Assembly (NCBI GenBank): GCA_945859605.1
Contig: OX243825.1
Location: 19,298,191 to 19,362,190, forward strand
Direction: 5' to 3'
Length of the DNA: 64,000 nucleotides
DNA from: Lumbricus rubellus
Lineage: Eukaryota; Annelida; Clitellata; Crassiclitellata; Lumbricidae
A program made the translations under genes and the position numbers. Positions within the stretch are counted from its first letter, which is position 1. Every line of letters starts with the position of its first letter. A model generated the notes under the pieces. It saw only the letters and a list, made by a program, of their open reading frames with translations. It did no database searches and had not been told where the DNA came from. Positions 2,713 to 58,410 of the stretch are shown here, piece by piece.

Positions 2713-3211
2713 AAGCTTAAGCATAGGTTGCTTCTGAGTCCACACCTAGCGCTGCCTCTCGGTAAAAACTCTTCAACGTGCTTTGTTGGTGATCTGCAAC
2801 CCTGACCCTCTCTGACCAATTCGTCAACGTCGCTCCTCTACCAGCAAGCTACAGACTTCAACTTATCAAACAATGGAGTTTATCCTTTTTCGTCCTTCTA
2901 CGGATGCCTGGTTGATGCCTCCCGGGACTCTGATCTTTTGGAACTTGGACTGCGCTAAGTGTTAAGTGCAATTTTCTTCTTCTGTTCTCTTCCTTGTTTA
3001 TAATTATTTACTTTAACAACACTCCTCCATGTGTTAATGTAGCATATTTTCATTCAGTATTGTTTATAATTTTACTTGAGTTATACTATGCATTCTTTAG
3101 CACTGACTTTATTCTACTTTTGGATATTTGAACCCGTTTCTTGTTTTCTTTATTTGCAATTTGGCATTGAGAGACGGTTGTGCACCATCATGGGCTCTCA
3201 CGTTCTTGTTT

Positions 3212-4553
3212 ATGAATAGTGATGACCCGATTTTATGTGGTCTGTGCACTAATGTAATTAAGGAAACAATTGATGTAATTACCTGCTCATTGTGCCACGC
3301 TGTGTTCCACTTTGGCTGCTGTTTTCAAAGCACTTTTTTACACTGTGACTCAGTTAATTGGATATGCATACATTGTAACAGGGAAGTATTCCCTTTTGTC
3401 GAGGATGATGAAGAATTTAAACTGAATGACACTATTAAGACAGATGACACTATTGCCGTAGAATTGAATGGGCTGAATCTTGAACTTACTGCCGTAGAAT
3501 TGAATGGTCTGAATCTTGAACTTGATGTGTTTCCTGATGAGTCGGGCAATCGTATCTTGCTCAACAATGCTGACACTGACCCAGACTTAAACTATTTCAC
3601 AAATGTGGCTTGGAGCAGTCCCTACTCCACAATCCCCCGTTGGGAGGCTAAGTTCGAGTCTATTGAAGCTAACTTTTCGGTCATGCACATTAATTGCCGC
3701 AGCATGGTACATAAGCTAGATGAAATATGCGAGGTTCTCAGTCAACTGCCTGTCTCTATTCTGGCCCTGTCGGAGACCTGGTTGGAGTCGGAATTTGAGG
3801 ATACTATTAATGTGCCCAACTACAAATTTATACACAAGTCTAGAGGGGGGAGTCTAGGAGGAGGAGGGGTGGGCTTTTTTGTTAGAGATACCATTAAATT
3901 CCAATTGTACGAAGAAAAAAGTGAACATAAAACTTATGAGGGTCTTTTCATCAAAACTTATTTACCTAGCACAACATGTTTAGTAGGAGTTTTGTATAGG
4001 CACCCAGGACAAAACTTGGTCGAATTCAATGCTGAGATAGAGGTCTTATTCTCCAGTATTGTCAAGGGGGCCAAAGATATTGTCCTACTAGGAGATTTTA
4101 ACATTGACCTATTGAAAATCAATGAACATAAAGAAACTAATATATTTTATAATAACCTGACTTCCCATCAGCTTATCCCAGCCATTACGAAACCCACTCG
4201 TATCACTCCAACCTCATCAACTTTGATTGATAACATATTCACTAATGCCTGGTCTAGTCTGATTGATTCGACCATTTTCATAGCTGACTTGTCTGATCAC
4301 CTGCCAGTATTCGCACACTTTGCATTTGGTAATTACAAGAGAAGCTTCCCGAATTATTATGACCATCGCATAATTAATGAGGAAAGATCAGAACAATTTA
4401 AATCCCTACTTGCTGATAGTAATTGGGATAATGTCTCGACTGCATGCAATAATGGAGATGCTGACGGGGCATATGAAGTGTTTATTGAAAAATATAAAAA
4501 CGCGTATGATCAGGCCTTCCCGATTGTGTCTAAAAAAATAACGCTAAGGGGCC
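3212..4553 (+). pseudogene. Retrotransposon ORF, part 1: PHD-like finger and endonuclease
   Basis: The frame is open from 3128, but I favour the ATG at 3212 because the conserved part starts there. The first 60 residues hold CxxC, CSLC, FHFGC and WICIHC, a PHD-like zinc finger. Then follow the APE-endonuclease signatures HINCRS, LSETWL, VLYRHPG, GDFNIDL, LIDNIF and SDHLPV, with all the expected Asn, Glu, Asp and His residues present. The family nicks target DNA to prime reverse transcription. Between the finger and the endonuclease, a short acidic segment containing AVELNGLNLEL is duplicated in tandem. The frame is lost near 4550, in the run AAGGGGCC; moving one base over continues the protein as PRFKQPWMTAGL. 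Confidence 0.8.
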
Positions 4554-4958
4554 TAGATTTAAGCAACCCTGGATGACTGCTGGGCTCCTCAAGTCTAGTA
4601 AGAAGAAAGCTTCATTGTACTTAAAATATATAAAAAATCCAAATGCTTATAATAAAAATAAATTTACTGTATACAGGAATAAATTTAAGGCTATTAGAGT
4701 CAAAGCAGAAAAAAATTACTATGCATCCGAATTCTGCAAATATAAAGACGACCTAAGGAGGACCTGGAAACTCATTCGCTCCATAATGCAATTGGAAAAT
4801 AAGGAGACACAAATTGAATCGTTAAAAATTAACGGAGAAAATGTTAAAGATCCAGAAAAAATGGCCAATAGCTTCAATAACTACTTCACCAACATAGCCC
4901 ATTCTTTGGCAAAGAAAATACCAGTTTCACCTCTCCCTACCATAGTTACTTACAGGCC
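4554..4958 (+). pseudogene. Retrotransposon ORF, part 2: linker before the reverse transcriptase
   Basis: This is the middle section of the same polyprotein in a second frame, beginning with the QPWMTAGLLKSSKKK stretch common between endonuclease and reverse transcriptase in this element group. It is Lys-rich, with a segment of the type YYASEFCKYKDDLRRTWKLI that recurs in such elements. The frame is lost again at about 4950-4965; the next part resumes as PRQNSMGFLMVSPEEI. Confidence 0.75.
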
Positions 4959-6530
4959 CCTCGGCAGAACTCTATGGGTTTCCTAATGGTATCCCCGGAG
5001 GAAATTATGGATATTGGCCGTGATATACGTTTAACGCATAGCAAAGGTGTTGACGATATAGACCCCTGTATTGCGGCCCCCAATCTCTCCTTGGTTGCCA
5101 GACCTTTAGCGGAGATAATAAATTGTTCATTTAGTAGTGGGATTGTTCCACAAGGCATAAAAATAGCTAAAGTGGTCCCAATACTGAAAAAGGGCGATAA
5201 GGACAATGTAATCAATTACAGACCCATTTCCGTTCTTCCTTACTTCTCCAAGTTCTATGAAAAACTTATGTATAATCGACTCTATGGCTATGTTAAAAAC
5301 TCTAACATCATTTATCCATCTCAGCATGGATTTCAACCTGGTCATTCCCCCTATATGGCCTTATTAAATATGCAGGACATGATTTCAAAGGCTATTGAAA
5401 ATAATGAATACTCAGTGGGAATCTTCTTTGATCTAGCTAAAGCGTTTGATACGGTAGACCATAATATTTTGCTTAAAAAATTAGACAACTATGGAATTAG
5501 GGGAACTCAGCTCAGATGGTTTGCCAGCTATTTTGAGAGCCGTACACAAAGAGTTCTCTGTAATGGTGTCCTTTCTGAGCTAGGCTTGATCAAATATGGA
5601 GTTCCTCAAGGCTCCAACCTCGGACCACTCCTTTTCCTGCTTTATATTAATGACTTGGCCAATGTCTCTCCAACAATGTTTTTTATTCTATTTGCCGATG
5701 ACACCAACGTTTTTTACTCCAATGGTTCATGGCAGACGTTGTTTCAAACTGTGAACGTTGAACTATCTAGCATAGCTGTTTGGTTCCATGCAAATAAACT
5801 CACCCTTAATTTAGATAAAACCAACTTTATTTTATTTAAATCCCACCGGAAAATAAAGCCAAATGACAATCTCTGTTTGCTTATTGATGATATTTCCATC
5901 AATCAAGTTGAATCTACAAAATTCTTAGGTGTGCATATAGATCAACATTTGACCTGGAAAGTTCATATTAATCAAATTGCAACTAAAATTGCTAAAAATA
6001 TTGGTATTATTTCCCGCGTTGCTTATATCTTGCCAAAGACAATTAGAATGAATTTGTATTATACCCTTGTCTACCCCTACCTCACATATTGCAACCTTGT
6101 TTGGGCATCGACATACGAATCCAGGCTTCATAAACTTGTAATCTTACAGAAGAGGGCTGTTCGTATAATTGCGGGTATTCGTAAACGGGAACACACTGGC
6201 CCTTCCTTTAATGAACTTCATCTCCTGAAAATTGACCAGATAAAGGATCTCCAAATTAGCGAGTTCTTTTTTCGACTCGAACACGGTCTCCTTCCTTCGG
6301 TATTCCAAGGTTACCTCCCTCACGCCTCTGACATCCATTCGCATTTCACTAGAAATTCATCTGCTTTTCGCCCTGTCAAAGCTCAATCTAATACTAGGCG
6401 GTTTACTATTAAATCTTATGGCACTAAAGTATGGAACACAATACCAATCGACATTCGTCAATCGAGTAGTCTGCAGGTATTTAAAAAGAAACTTCGTGTT
6501 CTTCTACTCTCCTCCACTAATGCTACTTGA
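4959..6530 (+). pseudogene. Retrotransposon ORF, part 3: reverse transcriptase
   Basis: About 520 residues with the full series of reverse-transcriptase blocks: YRPISVLPYFSKFYEKLM, FFDLAKAFDTVDH (catalytic Asp), GVPQGSNLGPLLFLLYINDL, FADDTNVF (catalytic Asp pair) and FLGVHIDQHLTW. The C-terminal part contains LQKRAVRII and VWNTIPIDIR, usual at the end of CR1/L2-type polymerases. The stop is TGA at 6528-6530. The enzyme copies element RNA at the nicked target site. This part is intact; the element is disabled only by the two upstream frameshifts. Confidence 0.85.
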
Positions 6531-24700: not shown

Positions 24701-26161
24701 TTTGTGCAAAAAAGACTAGCGGGTATACTTTTTCGGATAGTCACTGCATAAAAATATCTTACCAAAAGAAAAATATTTTTCGACCTACCTACCCAATTTT
24801 GTTACCTCTGTTACCAGAAACACAACATTTTTTAGGCCTAATAAATCACCACGAAACAATTCACGAGCACCAACCCTGAGCAAGCAGCGTGAAGTCGAGA
24901 AACCTTCCGATGTGGTAAAGCTCCATCGCCTCGTCGGTCGCCGTCAAGTGTCCGCGGCCGGACACCATCGCCTGCACCTCGCTGAGCGTTCCCAGGCTCA
25001 CGCTGCTGCGCAAAATGCACGATAAATCCACGGTGTCCAGGTAGACGGCGCCGAGCAACACCTGTGCATACCTGCGAGGAATGATGGACTCGTCAAGGAC
25101 GATGTGCGTCGGCGAATGCAACGCACGCTCCGTCATCTCCTCACCGGAACGCGCCCGTCGCAGGACGAGATTCCGGAAGAAAGTCGACCTCGCCGCCAGA
25201 ATCGCCTTGTGGCATCGTATTTCGTTGCGACACCGGCGCACGACGCCCAAAGTCCCATCATGCCGTGCGGCCAGCGCTCCGTACACGTCGCTGTGTATCG
25301 CGCTCACGTTTCCCTCGACGTGAGCGCAGCTGCTCAGTGACATCCCGCTCGCGAGCGCCGCGTCCGACTCGTTCGAGAAGACGAGCACGGCGTCGTAGTA
25401 CGCGCCGGTGTCCATCAGCGTTCGCAGGTCGTCCTCGAGACTGTTGGGGGCGCCGAACTCCGACGCCAGTTGAGCGAGGAGCTTTTTAAGGCCATGCAGT
25501 TGGTTCTCCTCGAGTCCAAAGTCGCCCGTGTACAGGTACCTTAGTAAGGCAGAAAAGAGGTGAACGTCTACCCCGGGGGTGCGTACGACGACCGGCACCT
25601 GCGCCCCGTACTCGGGGTAATGCGCGAGGAGTTCTCGGAAGAAGGCGCAGCGGATGCAGAGGATGGCGCGGTGCACTGGGAACGTCGTGCCGAGGTACAC
25701 GAGATCGATGTCCGTGCAGTACTTCATCTGGTAGAGCAGGAGAAGATCCTCGACGATGGTCGTAGAACGTGGACGCGACATATTGGCAAGAACCGTCAGC
25801 TCCTTCAGCACGCACATCGCGTCGTATTCATCGATCAACGAGTACAATTCGCGGACCGTCCACGAAGATGTCAGTTCCCGCAGCGCCTTGCTGTAGTCGT
25901 GGCCCGGTCCGTGGTTCTTCGTGCGCAGGAACTTGCGCTTCAGCGAAGCGAACTTGGAAATCTTCGGCTTCTTCTTCTTCGAAACGCAGACGTCGCAGTC
26001 GGCCGACGATGCGAGGATCGCGCGGCGAGACATCCCAGCGGAGGATGGCTGCGCGGCGCTGGATGGAAAACGTTCGGGAACGGAAGCATATGCGCCCATC
26101 GTCGTGTTAGTAGAGTAGAGGCTGCTTCTGCATCATACGACACCGGCCTTATCAACGTCAC
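15553..26161 (-). CDS. BTBD7: BTBD7 orthologue, seven coding exons (about 860 aa)
   Basis: The coding exons are 26099-24875, 23345-23137, 21479-21404, 20251-19944, 19245-19047, 18217-17835 and 15735-15553. All junctions have GT/AG and keep phase. The joined product aligns collinearly with vertebrate BTBD7: an N-terminal MGAYAS myristoylation-like motif (the human start has the same MGAxAS form), a basic patch at 41-62, a first BTB domain at about 128-215 (YCTDIDL, FPVHRAIL, YLYTGDFG), a second BTB at about 233-385, then a BACK region and the conserved REFGLPELAVELLQ block. Vertebrate BTBD7 is a cytoplasmic, membrane-associated scaffold that promotes epithelial cleft formation and E-cadherin turnover. 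The human protein is about 1,130 aa, so the low-complexity C-terminal half is shorter here, or further exons were missed. The introns carry minisatellites, SINEs and LINE ends. Confidence 0.93.
15923..16111 (-). mobile_element. LINE C-terminal fragment in BTBD7 intron
   Basis: On the minus strand it reads DESLFASVLTDPGHVLNDLL followed by a short tail and a stop. The same motif type (LFSAVLTRPGHVLHELLPP) occurs in the insertion at about 39797-40103, so both are 3' ends of one or two related non-LTR elements. It lies in the last BTBD7 intron, in the same orientation as the gene. Confidence 0.6.
16205..16535 (-). mobile_element. 5'-truncated LINE 3' end (GWAGSASE family)
   Basis: This is the longest local copy of the family. 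The minus strand reads LAIKQRRAFLVVGPTVWNDL then PVTLRSL, SLKSFFFGRGWAGSASE and a stop, followed by GGCGCTATATAAATG and a (GAATGAAT)n tail. The 'VVGPTVWNDLP' block marks the C-terminus of CR1/Jockey-like reverse transcriptases. Confidence 0.8.
17405..17690 (-). mobile_element. tRNA-derived SINE, type B
   Basis: Read on the minus strand the 5' part holds a pol III A-box-like sequence (TAGCTACACCGG, near 17675) and a B box (GGTTCAAGCCC, near 17610-17620) at tRNA-like spacing. A unique body follows, ending in a short (ATC)n-like tail near 17405. It differs in body from the SINEs at 23.5 and 33.6 kb. Confidence 0.7.
17693..17795. repeat. 14-bp tandem repeat
   Basis: About seven copies of ATATATGAAAAGA(A/G) in alternating GA/AA versions, 40 bp beyond the donor of the sixth BTBD7 coding exon (17835). 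Confidence 0.9.
17835..18217 (-). CDS. BTBD7: BTBD7 sixth coding exon
   Basis: It continues with VPDREVVHSMKLREAEVIHS and contains SVMHQIQLRVVREFGLPELA then VELLQ, equivalent to the human YEIQIRVLREFGLADAAAELLQ block. The rest is less conserved and rich in Arg, Pro, Gln and His. Acceptor TGTTTAG, donor GTAAGG. Confidence 0.9.
18808..18937. repeat. Inverted-repeat element with ACACCGTGGTGT palindromes
   Basis: The left arm (GGTGCCATTATTACACCGTG) and right arm (inverted: GGTGCTCATATTACACCGTG) are about 25 bp and imperfectly complementary. Each contains a perfect 12-bp palindrome. The span is about 130 bp in a BTBD7 intron. It could be a small TIR element; I see no clear target-site duplication. 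Confidence 0.6.
19047..19245 (-). CDS. BTBD7: BTBD7 fifth coding exon
   Basis: It reads VIMKEVLSKGSDSSIVPLRL and then VHTCAKPDALYMLPDRLY, ending with a Pro-rich segment and ATMP. Human BTBD7 has LRMVRMSNVPDTLYMV at this place. Acceptor TTGTAG, donor GTAATT. The upstream intron contains an array of 27-bp repeats ending about 10 bp from the acceptor region. Confidence 0.85.
19258..19455. repeat. 27-bp tandem repeat, about seven copies
   Basis: The unit is GCAAGTATTCTGCATATGAA plus TATTCAT. Each unit contains the palindromic ATGAATATTCAT. Because 27 is divisible by three, both strands stay open through the array; this is not coding. It sits in BTBD7 intron sequence right next to the exon at 19245. 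Confidence 0.9.
19944..20251 (-). CDS. BTBD7: BTBD7 fourth coding exon
   Basis: After completing the Glu codon it reads PNLLSHTAHSISRKGVRKRD through ELREILADILPHMR to VKPRLFLPFYREAK. These blocks are highly conserved in BTBD7. Acceptor GACACAG, donor GTAATT. About 15 bp upstream of the acceptor lies a (GCTT)n tract followed by AT-rich sequence that resembles a retrotransposon 3' tail. Confidence 0.92.
21404..21479 (-). CDS. BTBD7: BTBD7 third coding exon (25 codons)
   Basis: A short exon reading ASELDVLLAVIKWGEYQLV then KRIEER plus one base of the next Glu codon. It is flanked by TTTTTTAG and GTATTC. It matches the human ASEQDILKYLIKWGEHQL segment at the same place in the protein and was found only by following the phase and the homology. 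Confidence 0.9.
22010..22180 (+). mobile_element. Possible degraded tRNA-like SINE
   Basis: GATTGGGTAGAGTGCTCAAC followed by a stem-loop-like CCCATAACGTGGGG resembles a tRNA D-arm and anticodon region, but the B box is degenerate (GTACGGGAATTCCC). Lies in a BTBD7 intron. Confidence 0.35.
22440..22690. repeat. Degenerate tandem repeat
   Basis: Four or so diverged units of roughly 60 bp with the recurring phrases CATAACA(T)TTCAACAAAACAG and TCACCTT(C/A)(C/A). Old, diverged array within a BTBD7 intron. Confidence 0.6.
22765..22920 (-). mobile_element. 5'-truncated copy of the 2.7-6.8 kb LINE
   Basis: In reverse orientation this repeats the 3' untranslated region of the large element: the matching phrases are GGGTCACCC, CATCCCGCTGGGAAGGGT, GCATGCATTGGCTACAAAGG and the (TTGA)n-type tail, here (CAAT)n. 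Only about 150 bp is retained. Confidence 0.85.
22966..23118. repeat. 19-bp minisatellite beside a BTBD7 donor
   Basis: Eight nearly identical copies of GTTGATAGAAAACAATGCA. The array ends about 20 bp from the splice donor of the second BTBD7 coding exon, close enough to affect splicing if its length varies. Confidence 0.92.
23137..23345 (-). CDS. BTBD7: BTBD7 second coding exon
   Basis: It completes the Gly codon and reads CEDIIVDSITIDNLINILQW, then SSEPYGSDWVHRQTLHFL through to ELSKEYLIETISSDYLQ. The human counterpart has the same order of motifs (start of the BACK-like region). Acceptor TTAG at 23347-23346, donor GTTGGC at 23136. A 19-bp minisatellite starts only about 20 bp into the following intron. 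Confidence 0.92.
23492..23702 (-). mobile_element. tRNA-derived SINE, type A
   Basis: On the minus strand the 5' head carries an A-box-like TGGTGTGGTGG and a B-box-like GGTTCGAAGTTCGAATCC. Then follows a body shared with the copy at 33.5 kb (TGCTCAGCGCTTCGGTGTG), and a 3' tail GAGTAGAG...CTTGAAGGGGCGCTATAAC that matches the LINE family tail. A partial second copy of the body lies at about 23727-23768. Confidence 0.85.
24215..24335 (-). mobile_element. LINE 3'-end fragment (GxxVGSASE family)
   Basis: The minus strand reads LSHLKTVLFGRA, then a stop replacing the usual Trp, then VGSASE and the terminal stop. GAGGCGCTATATAAATGC and a (GAAT)n tail follow. It lies in the first BTBD7 coding intron. 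Confidence 0.8.
24423..24838. mobile_element. PIF/Harbinger-like MITE, copy 1 (416 bp)
   Basis: The ends are long inverted repeats: GGCCTATAAAAAATGTTGTG continuing TTTCCGGTAAC, and the mirror GTTACCAGAAACACAACATT. They are flanked by TAA at 24420-24422 and 24839-24841. The 3-bp TWA duplication and GGC start fit PIF/Harbinger transposition. No coding capacity. The right end lies 34 bp from the donor of the first BTBD7 coding exon. Confidence 0.85.
24875..26161 (-). CDS. BTBD7: BTBD7 first coding exon (coding 26099-24875)
   Basis: This 408-codon exon carries the N-terminus and both BTB domains. The start ATG at 26099 is supported by the MGAYAS motif and by a good splice acceptor 62 bp upstream (26162-26163, after a T-rich tract ending TTTAACTTCAG), so the transcript has at least one upstream non-coding exon. 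The exon ends LLAQ plus the first base of a Gly codon, with a weak donor GTTGGT. It is much more GC-rich than the flanks, which makes its antisense frames long and misleading. Confidence 0.93.
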
Positions 26162-47815: not shown

Positions 47816-47911
47816 TTATGTACATATTATATAGTTGATATTATCTGATGTTTCGTATTGTAGGACTGTTACGAATGTATAGGCCAAAAGTCTAAGCCCA
47901 TACGGTCTACC

Positions 47912-48964
47912 ATGTCACTCGCCTACTCTTGGATTTTGGCAGCCATTGTTTCTATAGTAGTCATTGTAGCTAATGCTTTTGCACTCGGCACCATTCTAAA
48001 AATAGATCGACTAAAATCACGTCAGAATTGCGTCATCATTCACATGACCGTCATTGACCTAATTCGAGGCGTCGTACTCTTTGCCGTCTCCTGCACAGTC
48101 CTTACCACACGACTCCCAGAAAAGGCGAGCGTATCCGGTGGATGTACGGCTCTGGGATTTATCTGGATTTGGGCGGAGACACTGGCTTGTTCTTCTGTTG
48201 CCGTATTTTTCATCGACAGACTCGTCTACTTGCAAAGCGCCGTCAACTATCCACATCGAATAACGCGCAAGTTTCTTGTCGTGATAATGTCCTACGTTGC
48301 GTTTCACGGCTTCATGGCCGCCATCTTGCCTGTATTGGGATGGGGAAAGTATGTAATGCGTTCGGGTGTCGTATGCGATGTTGACTGGCAAAATAAATCC
48401 GGTTATCCGCCATTTCTGGTCGTCTGGTGTATTTTAGTTCCGGTTGCTGTCACCTCTGGATGTTTTGTTCAGCTTGCATTGATCGTGCGAAGGAAATGGA
48501 AAAGAATTCGTCTGTACAGAGACCTGCAACATGAAATCCTACGACCGATCGGAGCGCCCCTTGCGGTCGGCAAGCATAGCATTACCGGCGGCGCTAGAGA
48601 AAAAGCCTTCGTGAAGACGCTGGCCATCTGTGGTTTAATATTTGCTGCCTACTGTTTCTCGTGGATCTTCAATTTGTCTGTATGGGTCGGGGAAATCACG
48701 GGTGTGATCAGTGGAAATGTAGTTGCTGTTGTGTTTCTGACTACAATTGCAATGACGACTTCTCTTGCGAACCCACTACTCATGATGATTTACAATCCGC
48801 AACTGCGCGGAGTGGCCGCTTGGATCGTGTCCTGTGGTAGGGTAACGATTAAGTCAGAGGTAAAGGACTTATCGCCAAGGCCTGCAGTTACCGTTTTAGA
48901 TAACTCCACTATGACGAGAAATCCGAGCTTCACAATTAACTCGCAACCTCTAACAAGGCTATAG
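47912..48964 (+). CDS. Class A (rhodopsin-like) GPCR, single exon
   Basis: 350 residues with seven hydrophobic helices at about 6-28, 40-64, 80-101, 120-143, 168-192, 233-258 and 270-293. Recognisable landmarks: N21 in helix 1, D49 in helix 2, C78 before helix 3 and C155 in loop 2 (disulfide pair), DR at 102-103 (DRLVY for DRY), P177 in helix 5, NP at 287-288. Unusual: the helix 6 CWxP box reads CFSW (no Pro), helix 4 lacks its usual Trp, and the Tyr after NP is displaced (NPLLMMIY). Loop 2 CDVDW resembles opsins, but the retinal Lys position in helix 7 holds Met. The ligand is unknown; signalling through G proteins is expected from the family. The N-terminus is only about five residues, without a glycosylation site, so an upstream exon is possible. 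Confidence 0.88.
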   Translation: MSLAYSWILAAIVSIVVIVANAFALGTILKIDRLKSRQNCVIIHMTVIDLIRGVVLFAVSCTVLTTRLPEKASVSGGCTALGFIWIWAETLACSSVAVFFIDRLVYLQSAVNYPHRITRKFLVVIMSYVAFHGFMAAILPVLGWGKYVMRSGVVCDVDWQNKSGYPPFLVVWCILVPVAVTSGCFVQLALIVRRKWKRIRLYRDLQHEILRPIGAPLAVGKHSITGGAREKAFVKTLAICGLIFAAYCFSWIFNLSVWVGEITGVISGNVVAVVFLTTIAMTTSLANPLLMMIYNPQLRGVAAWIVSCGRVTIKSEVKDLSPRPAVTVLDNSTMTRNPSFTINSQPLTRL

Positions 48965-48989: not shown

Positions 48990-49995
48990 ATAGAAGGAAA
49001 CGCCACTCCCTATACTCTGTTGCCGTCTGTTGCTCGAACTGTTGTTTGTACTTTTTATTAATGATATAGATGATGGGATTCTATCAAAGATTTCTAAGTT
49101 TGCGGATGACACAAAATTATGTAGAGCAGTGGGTAATAAAGAAGAAGCAGATATACTACAGGAAGATCTAGGAAAAATGTTTAGATGGTCATAGGACTGG
49201 CAAATGCTTTTTAATTTGGAAAAGTGCTCAGTGATGCATATGGGAAAGAGGAACCAGGAGTTTGCATATGAAATGGGGGGTAAGGCACTGAGGGTGAGTG
49301 ATGAAGAAAGGGACTTAGGAGTGATCATGCACAAGAGTGCAAAACCTTCAAGGCAATGTGCTGAAGCATCAAAAAAGGCAAATTCAACATTAGGCATGAT
49401 AAAAAGGACAATAGTTACTAGAGATAAGGATACAATACTGAGGCTATATAAATCACTGGTTAGGCCACAGCTGGAATACTGCATTCAGGCATGGAATCCA
49501 TACTTGAAGCAGGATATTGAAAAACTGGAGAAAGTGCAGAGAAGAGCTACGAAGATGATTTGGGGGTACAAAGATATGAGCTATGAGGAGAGGTTGGAAA
49601 GGTGTGGGCTAACAACACTGGAGAGAAGGAGGAGCAGAGGAGACCTAATTGAAGCATACAAGATCATTACTGGAAAGGAAGCACTATGTTGGGAGAAGTT
49701 CTTTGTATTAGCACCAAACAAAGCAACTCGGGGACATAGGTACAAATTTTTTAAGAAGCCGAAAGGATCATTAGGGCAGAAATTTTTCAGTGCTAGAGTT
49801 GTGGACATGTGGAACGGATTGGGGGACAGCACTGTGTCGGTGGACACGGTCACAGCATTTAAAAGGAACCTAGAAAAATTGGGGTATTAAAAGTTCCAGG
49901 TCAATATTGCAGTGGTTCTAACACAGGCCTAGTGTCTTCTGAACCACTTAAAACCCATGTTATGTTATGTTATGTTATGTTATGTTATGTTATGT
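48990..49995 (+). mobile_element. 5'-truncated non-LTR retrotransposon, CR1/L2-like
   Basis: It starts inside the reverse transcriptase: LFVLFINDIDDGILSKISKF then ADDTKL (catalytic FADD box). One in-frame TAG occurs near 49191. Then a 228-residue open frame (49204-49890) follows with DLGVIMHKSAKPSRQCAEAS, LVRPQLEYCIQAWNPYL, KLEKVQRRATKMI and ARVVDMWNGL. The 3' end is a (TTATG)n tail of about seven units (49951-49995). It inserted just after the GPCR stop codon and in the same direction, so it may supply 3' untranslated sequence to that gene. Confidence 0.88.
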
Positions 49996-53182: not shown

Positions 53183-53472
53183 GAAGGAGTGAGCGAGCGA
53201 CTGAATGAACGAACGAACGAATGAATTAACGAACGAACGAATGAAAGAATGAATGAACGAATGAACGAACGAACGAACGAACGAACGAACGAACGAACGA
53301 ATGAACGAATGAACGAACGAATGAATGAATGAATGAACGAAGGAACTAACGAACGAACGAACGAACGAACGAATGAATGAATGAATGAATGAATGAACGA
53401 ACGAATGAATGAATGAATGAACGAACTAACGAATGAACGAACGAACGAACGAGCGAACGAATGAATGAATGT
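53183..53472. repeat. (GAAC/GAAT)n microsatellite
   Basis: About 290 bp of 4-bp repeats mixing GAAC and GAAT. It keeps a Ser/Phe/Arg-rich frame open on the minus strand, which is not a gene. It starts 64 bp beyond the receptor stop codon. Confidence 0.95.
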
Positions 53473-53535: not shown

Positions 53536-56152
53536 TCATGGTCTGACAGCGAGTCCGTCGAGTTCTATCCTGGCTTTCTCCGATAAGACGAGCTTCCTGT
53601 CCACCCTCCTTTCATCACTCGCCATCTGACGAACCGTCTCCACCGCCTCCCCGAAGAAAAGGCACCGCGGGACCCGACTCGACCCCGCCGACCCTCTAGC
53701 CAGAATGATGGACACGGCACCGCAGTGTATAGCCGCCGTCAGCGACAGTCCCACGGCGCTGGGAAACGCAGCGGATATCTCAGAGGCGTGGTCAAGAAGG
53801 TAGCGTGCAAATGTCACGAGGCAGCCGACGGCCGCTGATAAGGGACGAGGCGAGTCAGGGAATGCGTCGACTGGGGAGACAACCATCATCGACTCTGAGG
53901 TTTCCTCCACCAGGTGCAGCTGCTGCTGTTCCTCGCTGTCGATGACCTTTGTGGCCGCTTCGTGCAACCTCAGACTGAACTGGGTGATCGCCGCAAGTGC
54001 GGACTCCACGGACGCGTCCTGCTTCCGGTGGCTTCTGATTCTGACGTCCAGGACGGCCACGGACTGATGCACGGCCGTGACAGGCTCCTCGATCAACCGG
54101 ATGTCCGAGATTCCGAGCAGCTTCATCGGGATCAGTCGATCCGTCAGCTGATCGCATCGGGATTCCGCCTCGGTGAGGTCGGACGTGACCTTCAGGAGCT
54201 GGGTGCTCACCCTGGCCGCATGCGCCTCCAGCTCCTCCATCATGATGTCGAGGAGACTGGATTTTCCGTGTGGCGTGGAGGCGCTGAGCGTCAGCACGAT
54301 CTGCTGAAAGGTGGGTCTCATGATGGACTTCTTCTGCAGAGCACTGTCTATTATCTGACGGGCTTTGGAGTTGATCGAGGCATTCTGCGTGATGTTGGCT
54401 CGCATCTCTTCGACGTTCCTCTCGATGTCCTCCGCTGACGCTGGGTCGGCCACGCAACCGTCACGAGCATTCGACAGAGTGAATATTTCGTACATAACAA
54501 CGCCGTAGTTGTAGACGTCACCAGCCTTTGTTGGTTGGAACGAGAACCTGCTCGTGTTCAGATCAAGGGTCTGGAGTCCCTCTGGTCGGCCTTCCTTTTC
54601 GTACCCTTCTCTGCAGTACTCCGCCTTGTGACAGAGGATACTGCTCGCCACCTTCAGTTTTCTCCGGTTGCGTTTCGTCCGACGCAGCGCTTCGTACAGG
54701 TAGGCGTACTCCCAGTCCGTGACCTTGACCGTCCAGCGTGAGTCCACCAGGCAGGAGGTGAGGGTCAGGGTACCGTGGACGATGCGATGGCTGTGGAGGA
54801 AGGCCATACCGTTGGCGATTTCCTTCGATACGGCAATCTTCATCGCTTCGTTTGTCTGGTAGTTTTCGCTGCGTAGGATGTTCTTCAGCGTTCCGCGCTC
54901 GCAGTCCTCTCGTATCATGAACAGTCGGTTGGAATTCGACCAGGACAGGCCGAAGAAACGGGTCACGTTCTCGTGGATCATCGTGTCCCTCATGCACAGC
55001 AGCGCCTCGCGCACACTTCGATCGAGGTCGAATATCTTTTCCAGTCGCATTTCCGTCGCGGAAACGCTGTTCCCGTTCAGTCTTCCACTGAGGCTAAACG
55101 CAGCACCGGTCTTCCCGCTCTGGGTCGACTGATCGTGGCTGCGTTCCGAACTGTCTGGGATGATCTTCGTCTCGGAGTCCTTTCCGTGTCCTCTGCGCTT
55201 CTTCGGAATGCTGAAATCGATGTCGGAGAAGTTGATCTTCCAGTCGTTACGGTCGAGTGCTCTCCGGTACTTGATCTTCTGCAGCGCGGAATAAGCGATC
55301 AGACCGATGATCACCAATGCAACGATTGGACCGAGAACCTCAACGGGAGTCTTCCACGTCTTCAGCGACTCATCCTCGTCGTACTTCTGCCTGCTGACCA
55401 GATCCACAATCCTCTCCCCGTTGCATCTCATGTGGTCAAAGACCACAGACTGTATCTTTGTGGCAATGGGAGAGCTGACCGACGCCATGTTCCTGCTTTC
55501 CGCTTCGATGAACGCCTGCCGGTCGCTGAGGAACCACTGGATGTAGCGAACCAGCTCGACGGTTGACTCACAGTAGTTGGCCGGAACGCTCTTGTGGATG
55601 ACGAAGTAAGCGTAGCCGGCCATCGGGTAGGCGTCCGGATTCTCAGAGTCCACGAATGTCCCGGTCAGTCGTTCGTCAAGTTGGAAGCTGTTCATCGCCG
55701 ACTGCACGGAGGCGGTAGTGGCGTCCACGACTTTTCCACGGCGATTAACAATCCGCGCGTAGTCCAGTCCGACCTCGTTAGCACTGGCTGGTGAGATGTA
55801 GCCGACGCTGTAGCGCCTGTCAAGTATGGTATCGACCATTCCTGTTACCCTCTGTCCAAACACCGTGACAACGGAGTGGTCCCAGCGCCCAGGGTCCGTG
55901 AACGCCCCCATCGAGCTGTGCCACTCGGCGCTGAAACTGCTGAGAGCGTTCGTGAAGATTTCTGTGGTGCCGGCCACGTCCAGTCTGGCGATCGGGACTA
56001 TGGTAGCGTTGGGAAAGACGATCCCTGGGTTGTAAAGGGAGAACGTGGAGTCGGACCAGGATGTCAGCGTTCCGTTGTAGATTCCGACCAACTGTTCCCT
56101 CGTTAGAATGAGCTTCTTTATCCCCGGCAAATTGTAGCCGATGACCAGTGCA
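53536..56152 (-). CDS. Second exon of the PstS-like receptor
   Basis: 872 codons including the TGA stop at 53538-53536. It starts in the middle of the PstS-like domain and encodes everything downstream without a further intron. The first residues, ALVIGYN, precede the LPGIKKLILT strand expected in PstS, which fixes the acceptor at 56152. The C-terminus ends KLVLSEKARIELDGLAVRP, near where receptor cyclases usually end. Confidence 0.9.
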
Positions 56153-57091
56153 CTAATCGAATCAAATCAAGTTATTGTTCCGAACAATGTATAGCACATA
56201 ATGTATGATCCCTGCAGTAACAAGTAGATCTATGGTTTCATAGGCCTACACGGGCCACTCCTTATGCAGTAGAAAAACTTTTGGAAGTTAAGATATGAAA
56301 GTCTAAAAAGATTCATCAAATACGATTATACAAAGCCGTCCAGAGCTGACAATGACAAATACACCAATGGGGGGTTACTAACAACTAAATTTAATAATAG
56401 CGAGCATCCCCTTCACCCACAGGCTGTAGTCAGGCTTAAAAACTGGTTAGCATAATCAATAAATTTAGCCTATATTGATAACTGTTGTGTTTGTGTGAAC
56501 AAACTGCCCAAATAATTATTTTAAAAAATCACTACAGGAACAAAATGCCAATCAGGCGCCAATGAAAAATGACAGTGGCATAAATTAACTATCTAAAATT
56601 GCTCAAAACTTATAATTTAAGCTGTGGCTGGACTTGGAGCACCTCTGAGTAGGTTTCTTGAATAAGCGCTATATAAATTCACGAAATGAATGAATGAATG
56701 AACTAGATCTATACGTACAGCGACGTATTAAACATGTAGCTTACCCTGCTACGGATGGAAACAGTTGGAGATCCGGCTGCATCGTATAGAGCTGATCGGA
56801 CAGAACGGAAGTGGTTGCGGCAAAGTCGACCCTTGATCCGCCGAGTTCATCTCCCAGTTGTCCAGTGATGGCCTTGACTCCGAATCCACTTCCTCTGGAG
56901 TCGTACTTCATCCGAACGTCAACGAAGCGTAACCTCTGGGCACGGTAGACGGCCATCCAGGTGTTGTAGACCTCCGTGGGGAAGTCGGCTCCAGCGCCCC
57001 TCAGATCAGTCTCACCCCCAATTGTTCCGACACCACAGACCAAGGTCAATCCGGCAAGAAGCAAGGTAGATCTGGCGAGTACAGTAGCCAT
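53536..57091 (-). CDS. Receptor with PstS-like domain, kinase-homology and degenerate guanylate-cyclase domains
   Basis: Exons 57091-56745 and 56152-53536 (donor GTAAGC, acceptor ATTAG) join within a Gly codon to give about 987 aa. Residues 1-25 are a signal peptide. Residues 30-350 resemble the bacterial phosphate-binding protein PstS: GAGADFP (32-38), SRGSGFGVKAI (65-75), VDFAATTSVLSD (88-99), VAGALVIGYNLPGIKKLILT across the splice, and RLDVAGTTEIFTNAL (172-186). A membrane helix lies at about 387-406. Residues 483-738 are a receptor-cyclase kinase-homology domain (GMAFLHSHRIVHGTLTLTSC then LVDSRWTVKVTDW; no HRD or DFG). Residues 748-791 form the dimerisation coil (LLDIMMEELEAHAARVSTQL). 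Residues 807-987 are a cyclase-like domain (LTAAIHCGAVSI, VPRCLFFGEAVETVRQMASD) with eroded catalytic sites. It is likely a cell-surface sensor; ligand and output are unknown. Both exons are GC-rich with animal-type splice sites, so it is not contamination. Confidence 0.88.
56625..56702 (+). mobile_element. LINE 3'-tail fragment in receptor intron
   Basis: GGAGCACCTCTGAGTAGG, CTTGAATAAGCGCTATATAA and (ATGA)n, antisense to the receptor gene, about 40 bp from the exon 1 donor. Confidence 0.75.
56745..57091 (-). CDS. First exon of the PstS-like receptor
   Basis: 115 codons plus two bases: the signal peptide (MATVLARSTLLLAGLTLVCG) and the N-terminal lobe of the PstS-like domain. The ATG context is AAGATGG. 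The donor GGTAAGC follows the Val-Ala-Gly that in PstS precedes the first crossover strand. Confidence 0.88.
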
Positions 57092-58080: not shown

Positions 58081-58169
58081 ATTCACCCACTCCTCCTCTC
58101 CCTCCCTGTCTCTATTTTCTGTTTCTCTGTGTCTGTCTCTCCGTCTGCCTGCCTGTTTTGTGGTCTGTC

Positions 58170-58410
58170 TCCCTCGCTCTTCCCTCCTCCCTCTTCCCTC
58201 TTCCCTCTTCCCTCCTCCCTCTCCCTCTCCCTCTCCCTCTCCCTCTCCCTCTCCCTCTCCCTCTCCCTCTCCCTCTCCCTCTCCCTCTCCCTCCCCCTCT
58301 CCCTCTTTCCCTCTCTCCCTCTCCCTCTCCCTCCCTCTCTCCCTCTCTCCCTCTCCCTCTCCCTCTCCCTCCCTCTCTCCCTCTCTCCCTCTCCCTCTCT
58401 CTCTCTATCA
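58170..58410. repeat. (CCCTCT)n microsatellite
   Basis: A pyrimidine-only tract of CCCTCT and CCCT units about 240 bp long, preceded by CT-rich sequence. Open frames of Ser/Pro/Leu (plus) and Arg/Glu/Gly (minus) are artefacts. Confidence 0.97.

Follow-up and report, generated by a model that had tools for sequence, protein, structure and literature searches.

Does an annelid gene join a bacterial type of phosphate-binding domain to the machinery of an animal receptor guanylate cyclase and, if so, what could its product still do? The question is raised by a gene in a 64,000-nucleotide stretch of Lumbricus rubellus DNA (contig OX243825.1; C18:19298191-19362190 of the 787-Mb assembly), the whole of which is called the window below. 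An original prediction, made from the letters of the window, described a gene in which a PstS-like ectodomain was coupled to receptor-cyclase parts. That architecture was supported by the present analysis; the assignment of the Asp of a VDF motif as a phosphate residue and the plain description of the last domain as cyclase-like were not. Judged from its sequence, the product is very probably a non-catalytic receptor of a family with PstS-type heads, for which the name PstS-headed receptor cyclases was coined here.

Gene structure

The receptor gene comprised two exons (57091..56745 and 56152..53536, minus strand) that formed one frame of 987 codons once spliced. The start ATG was located at 57091, the donor site (GG/GTAAGC) after 56745, the acceptor site (TTAG/T) at 56152 and the stop codon TGA at 53538-53536. 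Three exon junctions were tried, and 56745/56152 alone gave an open frame. Exon 1 (56745..57091) carried the start codon, a signal peptide (approximately residues 1-26, judged by eye) and the first third of the PstS-type ectodomain. The GT-AG intron (56153..56744) cut a Gly codon between ...FPSVAG and ALVIGYN..., a position common to three paralogs of the genome. Exon 2 (53536..56152) carried the remaining ectodomain, the membrane helix, the kinase-homology domain, the coil, the cyclase-derived domain and the stop codon. The frame was preserved in two relatives with 78% and 74% identity to exon 2, exon 1 of both lying outside the sequence seen.

In the 987-amino-acid (aa) product the signal peptide was followed by the PstS-type ectodomain (approximately residues 27-360; 55420..57013, split by the intron), a single transmembrane helix, VEVLGPIVALVIIGLIAYSAL (approximately residues 386-406; 55282..55344), a pseudokinase (kinase-homology) domain (approximately residues 418-742; 54274..55248), a dimerisation coil (approximately residues 749-789; 54133..54255) and a C-terminally shortened cyclase-derived domain (53539..54132), all on the minus strand. 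The transmembrane helix was recognised as a hydrophobic run, with the long helix 248-300 of a model of exon 2 (protein residues 364-416) at the same place. Helix 633-673 of that model corresponded to the coil, the role of which was assigned by analogy with receptor cyclases.

Pfam searches of the protein matched PBP_like_2 (PF12849) at residues 26-327 (E 1.9e-19) and PK_Tyr_Ser-Thr (PF07714; E 3.3e-26), with no match to ANF_receptor (PF01094), the type I binding-fold ectodomain found in the well-known receptor guanylate cyclases. Sequence searches of the PDB matched PstS (E 2.1e-32; best stretch 11-325) and atrial natriuretic peptide (ANP) receptor 1, or GC-A (E 6.1e-25; best stretch 385-597). 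The spliced frame and these matches bear out a single two-exon gene with a PstS-like head on receptor machinery; the profile search of the head against PBP-like families, proposed as a check, agreed with a PstS-like rather than an ANF-receptor ectodomain.

An assembly or annotation error that brought a piece of bacterial pstS next to a receptor gene unrelated to it can be given next to no weight. Nothing was found in its favour, and the PstS part crosses the intron and continues in frame into the receptor exon. The layout was moreover repeated at three other loci of the genome and in other species, and the best bacterial match to a family head was 36% identical. For the family as a whole, the repetition across loci and species refutes such an origin.

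The PstS-type head and its pocket

The head has the PstS fold by Pfam, by PDB sequence matches and by structural matches. A complete head was modelled in the Owenia relative alone, with TMt up to 0.85; the structure prediction proposed for the ectodomain gave a PBP-type fold in this relative's model.

Pocket and catalytic positions were read from an alignment of 46 family rows with Escherichia coli PstS and P0012, an ordinary mammalian receptor cyclase, and contacts are numbered as in E. coli PstS. The nine positions used were the phosphate contacts of PstS; PDB titles name Asp56 and Asp137. Letters at positions 10, 11, 38 and 56 were available for no more than 24 to 27 of the 46 rows, many of the lgn, ena and jgi rows beginning at exon 2. 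Among rows with a letter, the contact residue was present at Thr/Ser10 in 23/24, Phe11 in 22/24, Ser38 in 24/27 and Asp56 in 22/25. In the exon 2 part the counts were 45/45 for Arg135, Gly140 and Thr/Ser141, and 40/45 for both Asp137 and Ser139. Of the three rows that lack Ser38, P0029 and P0041 have at this position N-terminal stretches that by eye resemble unspliced intron. All nine contacts were intact in 17 of the 24 rows in which all nine letters could be read.

The window head retained six of the nine. Asp36 (56984..56986, minus strand) replaces Thr10, Asp being found there in the window alone and Thr or Ser in 23 of the 24 rows with a letter. Thr94 (56810..56812, minus strand) replaces Asp56; the 25 rows with a letter had Asp in 22 and Glu in two, and Thr in the window alone. 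An acid and a hydroxyl residue are in effect exchanged between these positions. In the RLDVAGT loop (55966..55986, minus strand) Arg172, Asp174, Gly177 and Thr178 are kept, as had been claimed for the Arg, Asp, Gly and Thr of the last phosphate loop, and Ala176 replaces Ser139. The Asp of VDF, by contrast, had been taken for the phosphate Asp and proved to align with E. coli Asp51, the true equivalent of Asp56 being Thr94. In the paralogs nine (C5b), eight (C5a) and eight (C9) contacts were retained. With these three pocket changes the window copy probably binds another ligand than its C5 sisters do, or binds with another affinity.

The pattern of residues makes it reasonably likely that the ligand of the family is an anion. 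The head could instead be a protein- or sugar-binding module built on the PstS fold, with no sensing of small anions and with the pocket of the window copy lost altogether. The three changes in the window, the most among the 24 fully readable rows, would suit such a module, as would the two changes each in P0017 and P0031 (Argonauta), both of which have Glu at position 56. It is nonetheless an improbable account, since the presence of all nine contacts in 17 of 24 rows is hard to explain unless such a ligand is bound.

Kinase-homology and cyclase-derived domains

Foldseek gave the intracellular domain of GC-A as the best match of both models, that of window exon 2 (9bcs) and that of the Owenia protein. 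At the Lys, HRD and DFG positions of the kinase-homology domain the window protein has T, T and D, lacking the beta3 Lys and the HRD Asp. The beta3 Lys was retained in three and the HRD Asp in two of the 46 family rows, and by these positions nearly all members of the family would be pseudokinases. P0038 (Gigantopelta aegis) stood apart from nearly all other rows, its Lys, HRD Asp and DFG Asp being those expected of an active kinase.

The six positions needed for cyclase catalysis (two metal-binding Asp, the guanine-binding Glu and Cys, an Asn and an Arg) read DDECNR in intact enzymes. The window protein reads REELEQ, with five altered and one kept, and by these residues its cyclase part is catalytically dead. 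Over 43 rows all six were present in four (P0005, P0008, P0035 and C9), four in P0034, three in P0030 and none to two in the other 37; seven named oyster, pearl-oyster and scallop rows were all non-catalytic by residues.

The window C-terminal domain alone had no Pfam match (PF00211 included), and nothing relevant was returned by PDB sequence search. When a profile of the window protein and its two close relatives was compared by hhalign, the scores were 85% with intact family cyclases (158-165 columns), 88% with other non-catalytic members and 91% with the C5 pair, the E-values being those of single comparisons and to be read loosely. The exon 2 model had an order of strands and helices in this domain that, in our reading, resembles class III cyclases, and the protein terminates ahead of the last cyclase strands. 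A second look with VIA-align returned no cyclase chain among its rows, but the C-terminal domain was barely tested there and the result is uninformative. By these comparisons the domain is of class III descent and lacks the catalytic residues, with no Guanylate_cyc match in Pfam; C9 has the residues of a receptor cyclase.

Copies in the genome and relatives in other species

The genome was searched exon by exon and the best candidates were scored; at least four receptor copies are present in the assembly. A search with PF12849 returned three open frames, one being that of the window gene and the others those of C5a and C5b, which lie approximately 12.6 kb apart on C5 as a tandem pair; the C9 copy was found with P0008. 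An upstream exon 1 with the identical split-codon junction was present in C5a, C5b and C9. The C5 copies also have a single large second exon, and their frames seem to enter a last intron after ITIK; C9 has additional introns in its cyclase part. Identity to the window protein was 38% for either C5 protein and 28% for C9, and C5a and C5b were 81% identical to each other. All six catalytic residues were found in C9, and both C5 copies are non-catalytic. In the course of the P0008 search many cyclase-domain matches, some with stops, were also seen within approximately 330 kb of C2 (50753381-51081740, minus strand), where ordinary class III cyclase genes may be clustered.

The ratio of nonsynonymous to synonymous substitution rates (dN/dS) between C5a and C5b was 0.24 for the exon 2 part of the head, 0.26 for the kinase part and 0.44 for the cyclase part with its tail, which may be intron. 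These values indicate purifying selection, so that the dead cyclase part, at 0.44, is still constrained.

Protein databases were searched with the spliced protein and with a profile of ten of its matches (E <= 1e-40). Both searches were non-exhaustive, the profile search scoring the 7991 candidates that shared most words. At least 12 proteins were found with the spliced protein, 11 having the same layout or being pieces of it, together with P0012. The profile search found at least 39, all with PF12849; 36 also had a kinase-type domain, and 31 of those 36 also matched PF00211, a match that does not imply intact catalytic residues. P0001, P0002, P0005, P0008, P0009 and P0011 of the first search were absent from the list of the second. 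Jointly the two gave at least 42 further rows with a kinase part, of which 41 carried PF12849. The named sources were the molluscs Patella, Haliotis, Liolophura, Saccostrea, Pinctada, four scallop genera, Sinanodonta, Dreissena, Argonauta, Nucella, Biomphalaria and Gigantopelta, the nemerteans Lineus and Tubulanus, and the annelids Owenia and Paralvinella. Family rows were labelled 'speract receptor', 'atrial natriuretic peptide receptor 2-like' and 'retinal guanylyl cyclase 1-like' in the databases, labels that probably mislead on both ligand and activity.

The close relatives of the window protein (868 and 787 aa; 78% and 74% identity) share its catalytic losses and retain the cyclase-derived domain. 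They bear on whether the window gene could be a young pseudogene, copied from the C5 receptors and now in decay, as its altered catalytic and pocket residues might suggest. Such decay is very improbable and was set aside on the 987 codons without a stop, the same losses in both relatives (exon 1 unseen) and the long branch to the C5 pair.

P0017 (1102 aa, 4026-nt contig) and P0018 (1037 aa, 4881-nt contig) were 89% identical over a match that begins exactly at the intron position. Upstream of it lies the N-terminal third of the head in P0017, and eight unrelated residues take that place in P0018; after LIVK an additional in-frame stretch is present in P0018 and absent from P0017. On the simplest reading one would be a spliced transcript and the other genomic sequence, though an intronless copy could also account for the difference.

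Three further proteins have PstS-type domains in other settings. P0046 (Calcarisporiella, a fungus) carries the head on a fragment of a 7tm_3-type receptor, P0045 carries it on a class III cyclase that has no kinase part, and P0044 has two PstS domains ahead of a membrane helix; the helices of these proteins and a kinase-like start of P0044 were judged by eye. Eukaryotic receptors may recurrently bear PstS as their outer domain.

Phylogeny and origin of the head

A first tree of 43 rows, without C9, was followed by one of 32 rows from which 12 near-duplicate or short rows had been removed and to which C9 was added; P0041-P0046 were left out of both. In the 32-row tree, rooted on the single long-branched outgroup P0012, the 26 non-catalytic rows formed one clade (100/99), and the five intact or nearly intact rows fell outside it, C9 standing beside the mammalian outgroup. 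The first tree was concordant (97/96 for a non-catalytic clade of 38 rows). The intact rows were not one clade in the 32-row tree; constraining them together was not rejected (p-AU 0.105), so the tree gives no firm root among them. The plain reading would be an early split into catalytic and non-catalytic lines, both of which occur in the genome of the window.

For the ectodomain tree, bacterial rows were 18 of the best 80 relatives plus E. coli PstS. The 19 animal rows formed a clade (100/98) apart from the 19 bacterial rows (99/95), with P0044, P0045 and P0046 outside the animal clade, weakly placed among weak deep forks. When contigs were scanned for a bacterial donor (best 80 of 88 relatives), the top match was an Anaerolineae sequence 36% identical to the Patella head; a recent transfer was tested and set aside. 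The head was most likely acquired once, long ago, in this lineage, from either a bacterium or an older eukaryotic PstS-headed protein. Of the horizontal acquisition raised in the original prediction, a single old acquisition accordingly stands as the likeliest course, with a bacterium as one of two candidate sources.

How the receptor may act

The two-lobed head would close on a small ligand, which in most members may be phosphate or a similar oxyanion, judging from the residues kept. Closure would turn the dimer and be relayed, by way of the membrane helix and then the pseudokinase, to the cyclase part that the coil dimerises, and in catalytic members (the C9 paralog and Owenia) it would set the production of cyclic GMP (cGMP). 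Non-catalytic members, the window protein included, would make no cGMP on their own and most likely act by dimerising. Paired with a catalytic member, such a subunit could make the output dependent on the non-catalytic head or hold the catalytic member inactive. The two kinds co-occur in one genome (the C5 pair and the window gene; C9), and the ODR-1 and DAF-11 receptor cyclases are an obligate heterodimer, according to PMC5225109.

We lean, by a modest degree of belief, to a family of oxyanion-sensing receptors with an old catalytic/non-catalytic split, in which the window gene would encode a non-catalytic member that acts by dimerising and whose pocket has changed. Action specifically through a partner of the C9 type is a tentative proposal. 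Somewhat more doubtful is a fuller version, in which lophotrochozoans would have dedicated cell-surface receptors that sense inorganic phosphate or a similar oxyanion, with an old pair of catalytic and non-catalytic subunits, and the window protein, its residues at positions 10 and 56 swapped, would report a different ligand through its partner.

Several points weigh against the favoured reading. With one catalytic residue of six left, the window product could hardly supply half an active site, unlike ODR-1 or DAF-11. Besides C9 the sole named intact row is that of the annelid Owenia (P0005), and a catalytic partner in molluscs or nemerteans was not seen. C9 likewise has Ala at position 139, and, since PDB 1ixi is by its title the Asp56-to-Asn mutant of PstS with phosphate, a change of Asp56 alone is no proof of a changed ligand. 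The window-group C-terminal profile scored only 8.5% by hhalign against a single mammalian receptor cyclase, and hhalign within the family, gene order, family intermediates and the fold model together link this domain to intact cyclases with moderate strength.

NPR-C is a precedent for clearance among the natriuretic peptide receptors, and the non-catalytic members could similarly be clearance or decoy receptors that bind and remove or buffer the ligand, or could signal through the pseudokinase only, without a catalytic partner. The alteration of five of six catalytic positions in the window and the non-catalytic state of the seven oyster, pearl-oyster and scallop rows fit this well enough. 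We regard it as unlikely, though worth keeping in view, because a decoy would not need the cyclase-derived domain, which is mostly retained (in the 78% and 74% relatives too) and has a dN/dS of 0.44 in the C5 pair, and because a catalytic sister is retained in the same genome.

Surrounding sequence

Open frames at 3107-6527 (plus strand) matched an endonuclease (PF03372, E 1.2e-13) and a reverse transcriptase (PF00078, E 2.2e-32) and have the look of a retroelement of the long interspersed element type. A shorter frame at 49195-49887 (plus strand) resembled reverse transcriptase by eye and had no Pfam match at E 0.01. A 423-aa frame with a BTB/POZ domain (E 5.8e-18) was found at 24864-26132 (minus strand), and a 366-aa frame at 47864-48961 (plus strand) matched rhodopsin-type 7tm_1 receptors (E 5.9e-12). 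Tandem arrays were located at 1205-2318 (12-54-bp GC-rich units), 53203-53469 (GAAC) and 58168-58405 (TCTCCC), the last two flanking the receptor gene, one on each side. An Rfam scan of the window gave zero families at gathering score.

Comparison with known systems

From signal peptide to cyclase-derived domain the window protein has the domain order of GC-A, and it has the single membrane pass and juxtamembrane kinase-homology domain of a receptor guanylate cyclase. It differs from GC-A-type receptors in its head, which is of the PstS type with no ANF_receptor match, and in the loss of catalytic residues, shared with most of its relatives. Unlike PstS of the bacterial PstSCAB system, the head is fused to a receptor and carries the replacements at positions 10 (Asp), 56 (Thr) and 139 (Ala). 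ODR-1 and DAF-11 are not known to have a PstS-type head. These Caenorhabditis elegans proteins are a precedent for heterodimeric receptor cyclases, but in them each monomer gives essential catalytic residues (PMC5225109), whereas the window product keeps one of six. In P0046, P0045 and P0044, too, a PstS-type domain forms the outer portion of what is probably a membrane protein, with other or incomplete inner parts. No description of a PstS-type head on a receptor cyclase was found in the literature, most subscription papers lying outside the search.

The family matters more than its single divergent member in the window. It brings a new outer domain to receptor cyclases, and it has mostly given up catalysis yet kept the pocket. 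The sensing of extracellular phosphate by animals is poorly settled; heads that retain the bacterial phosphate pocket nearly residue for residue would make that question testable with one purified domain.

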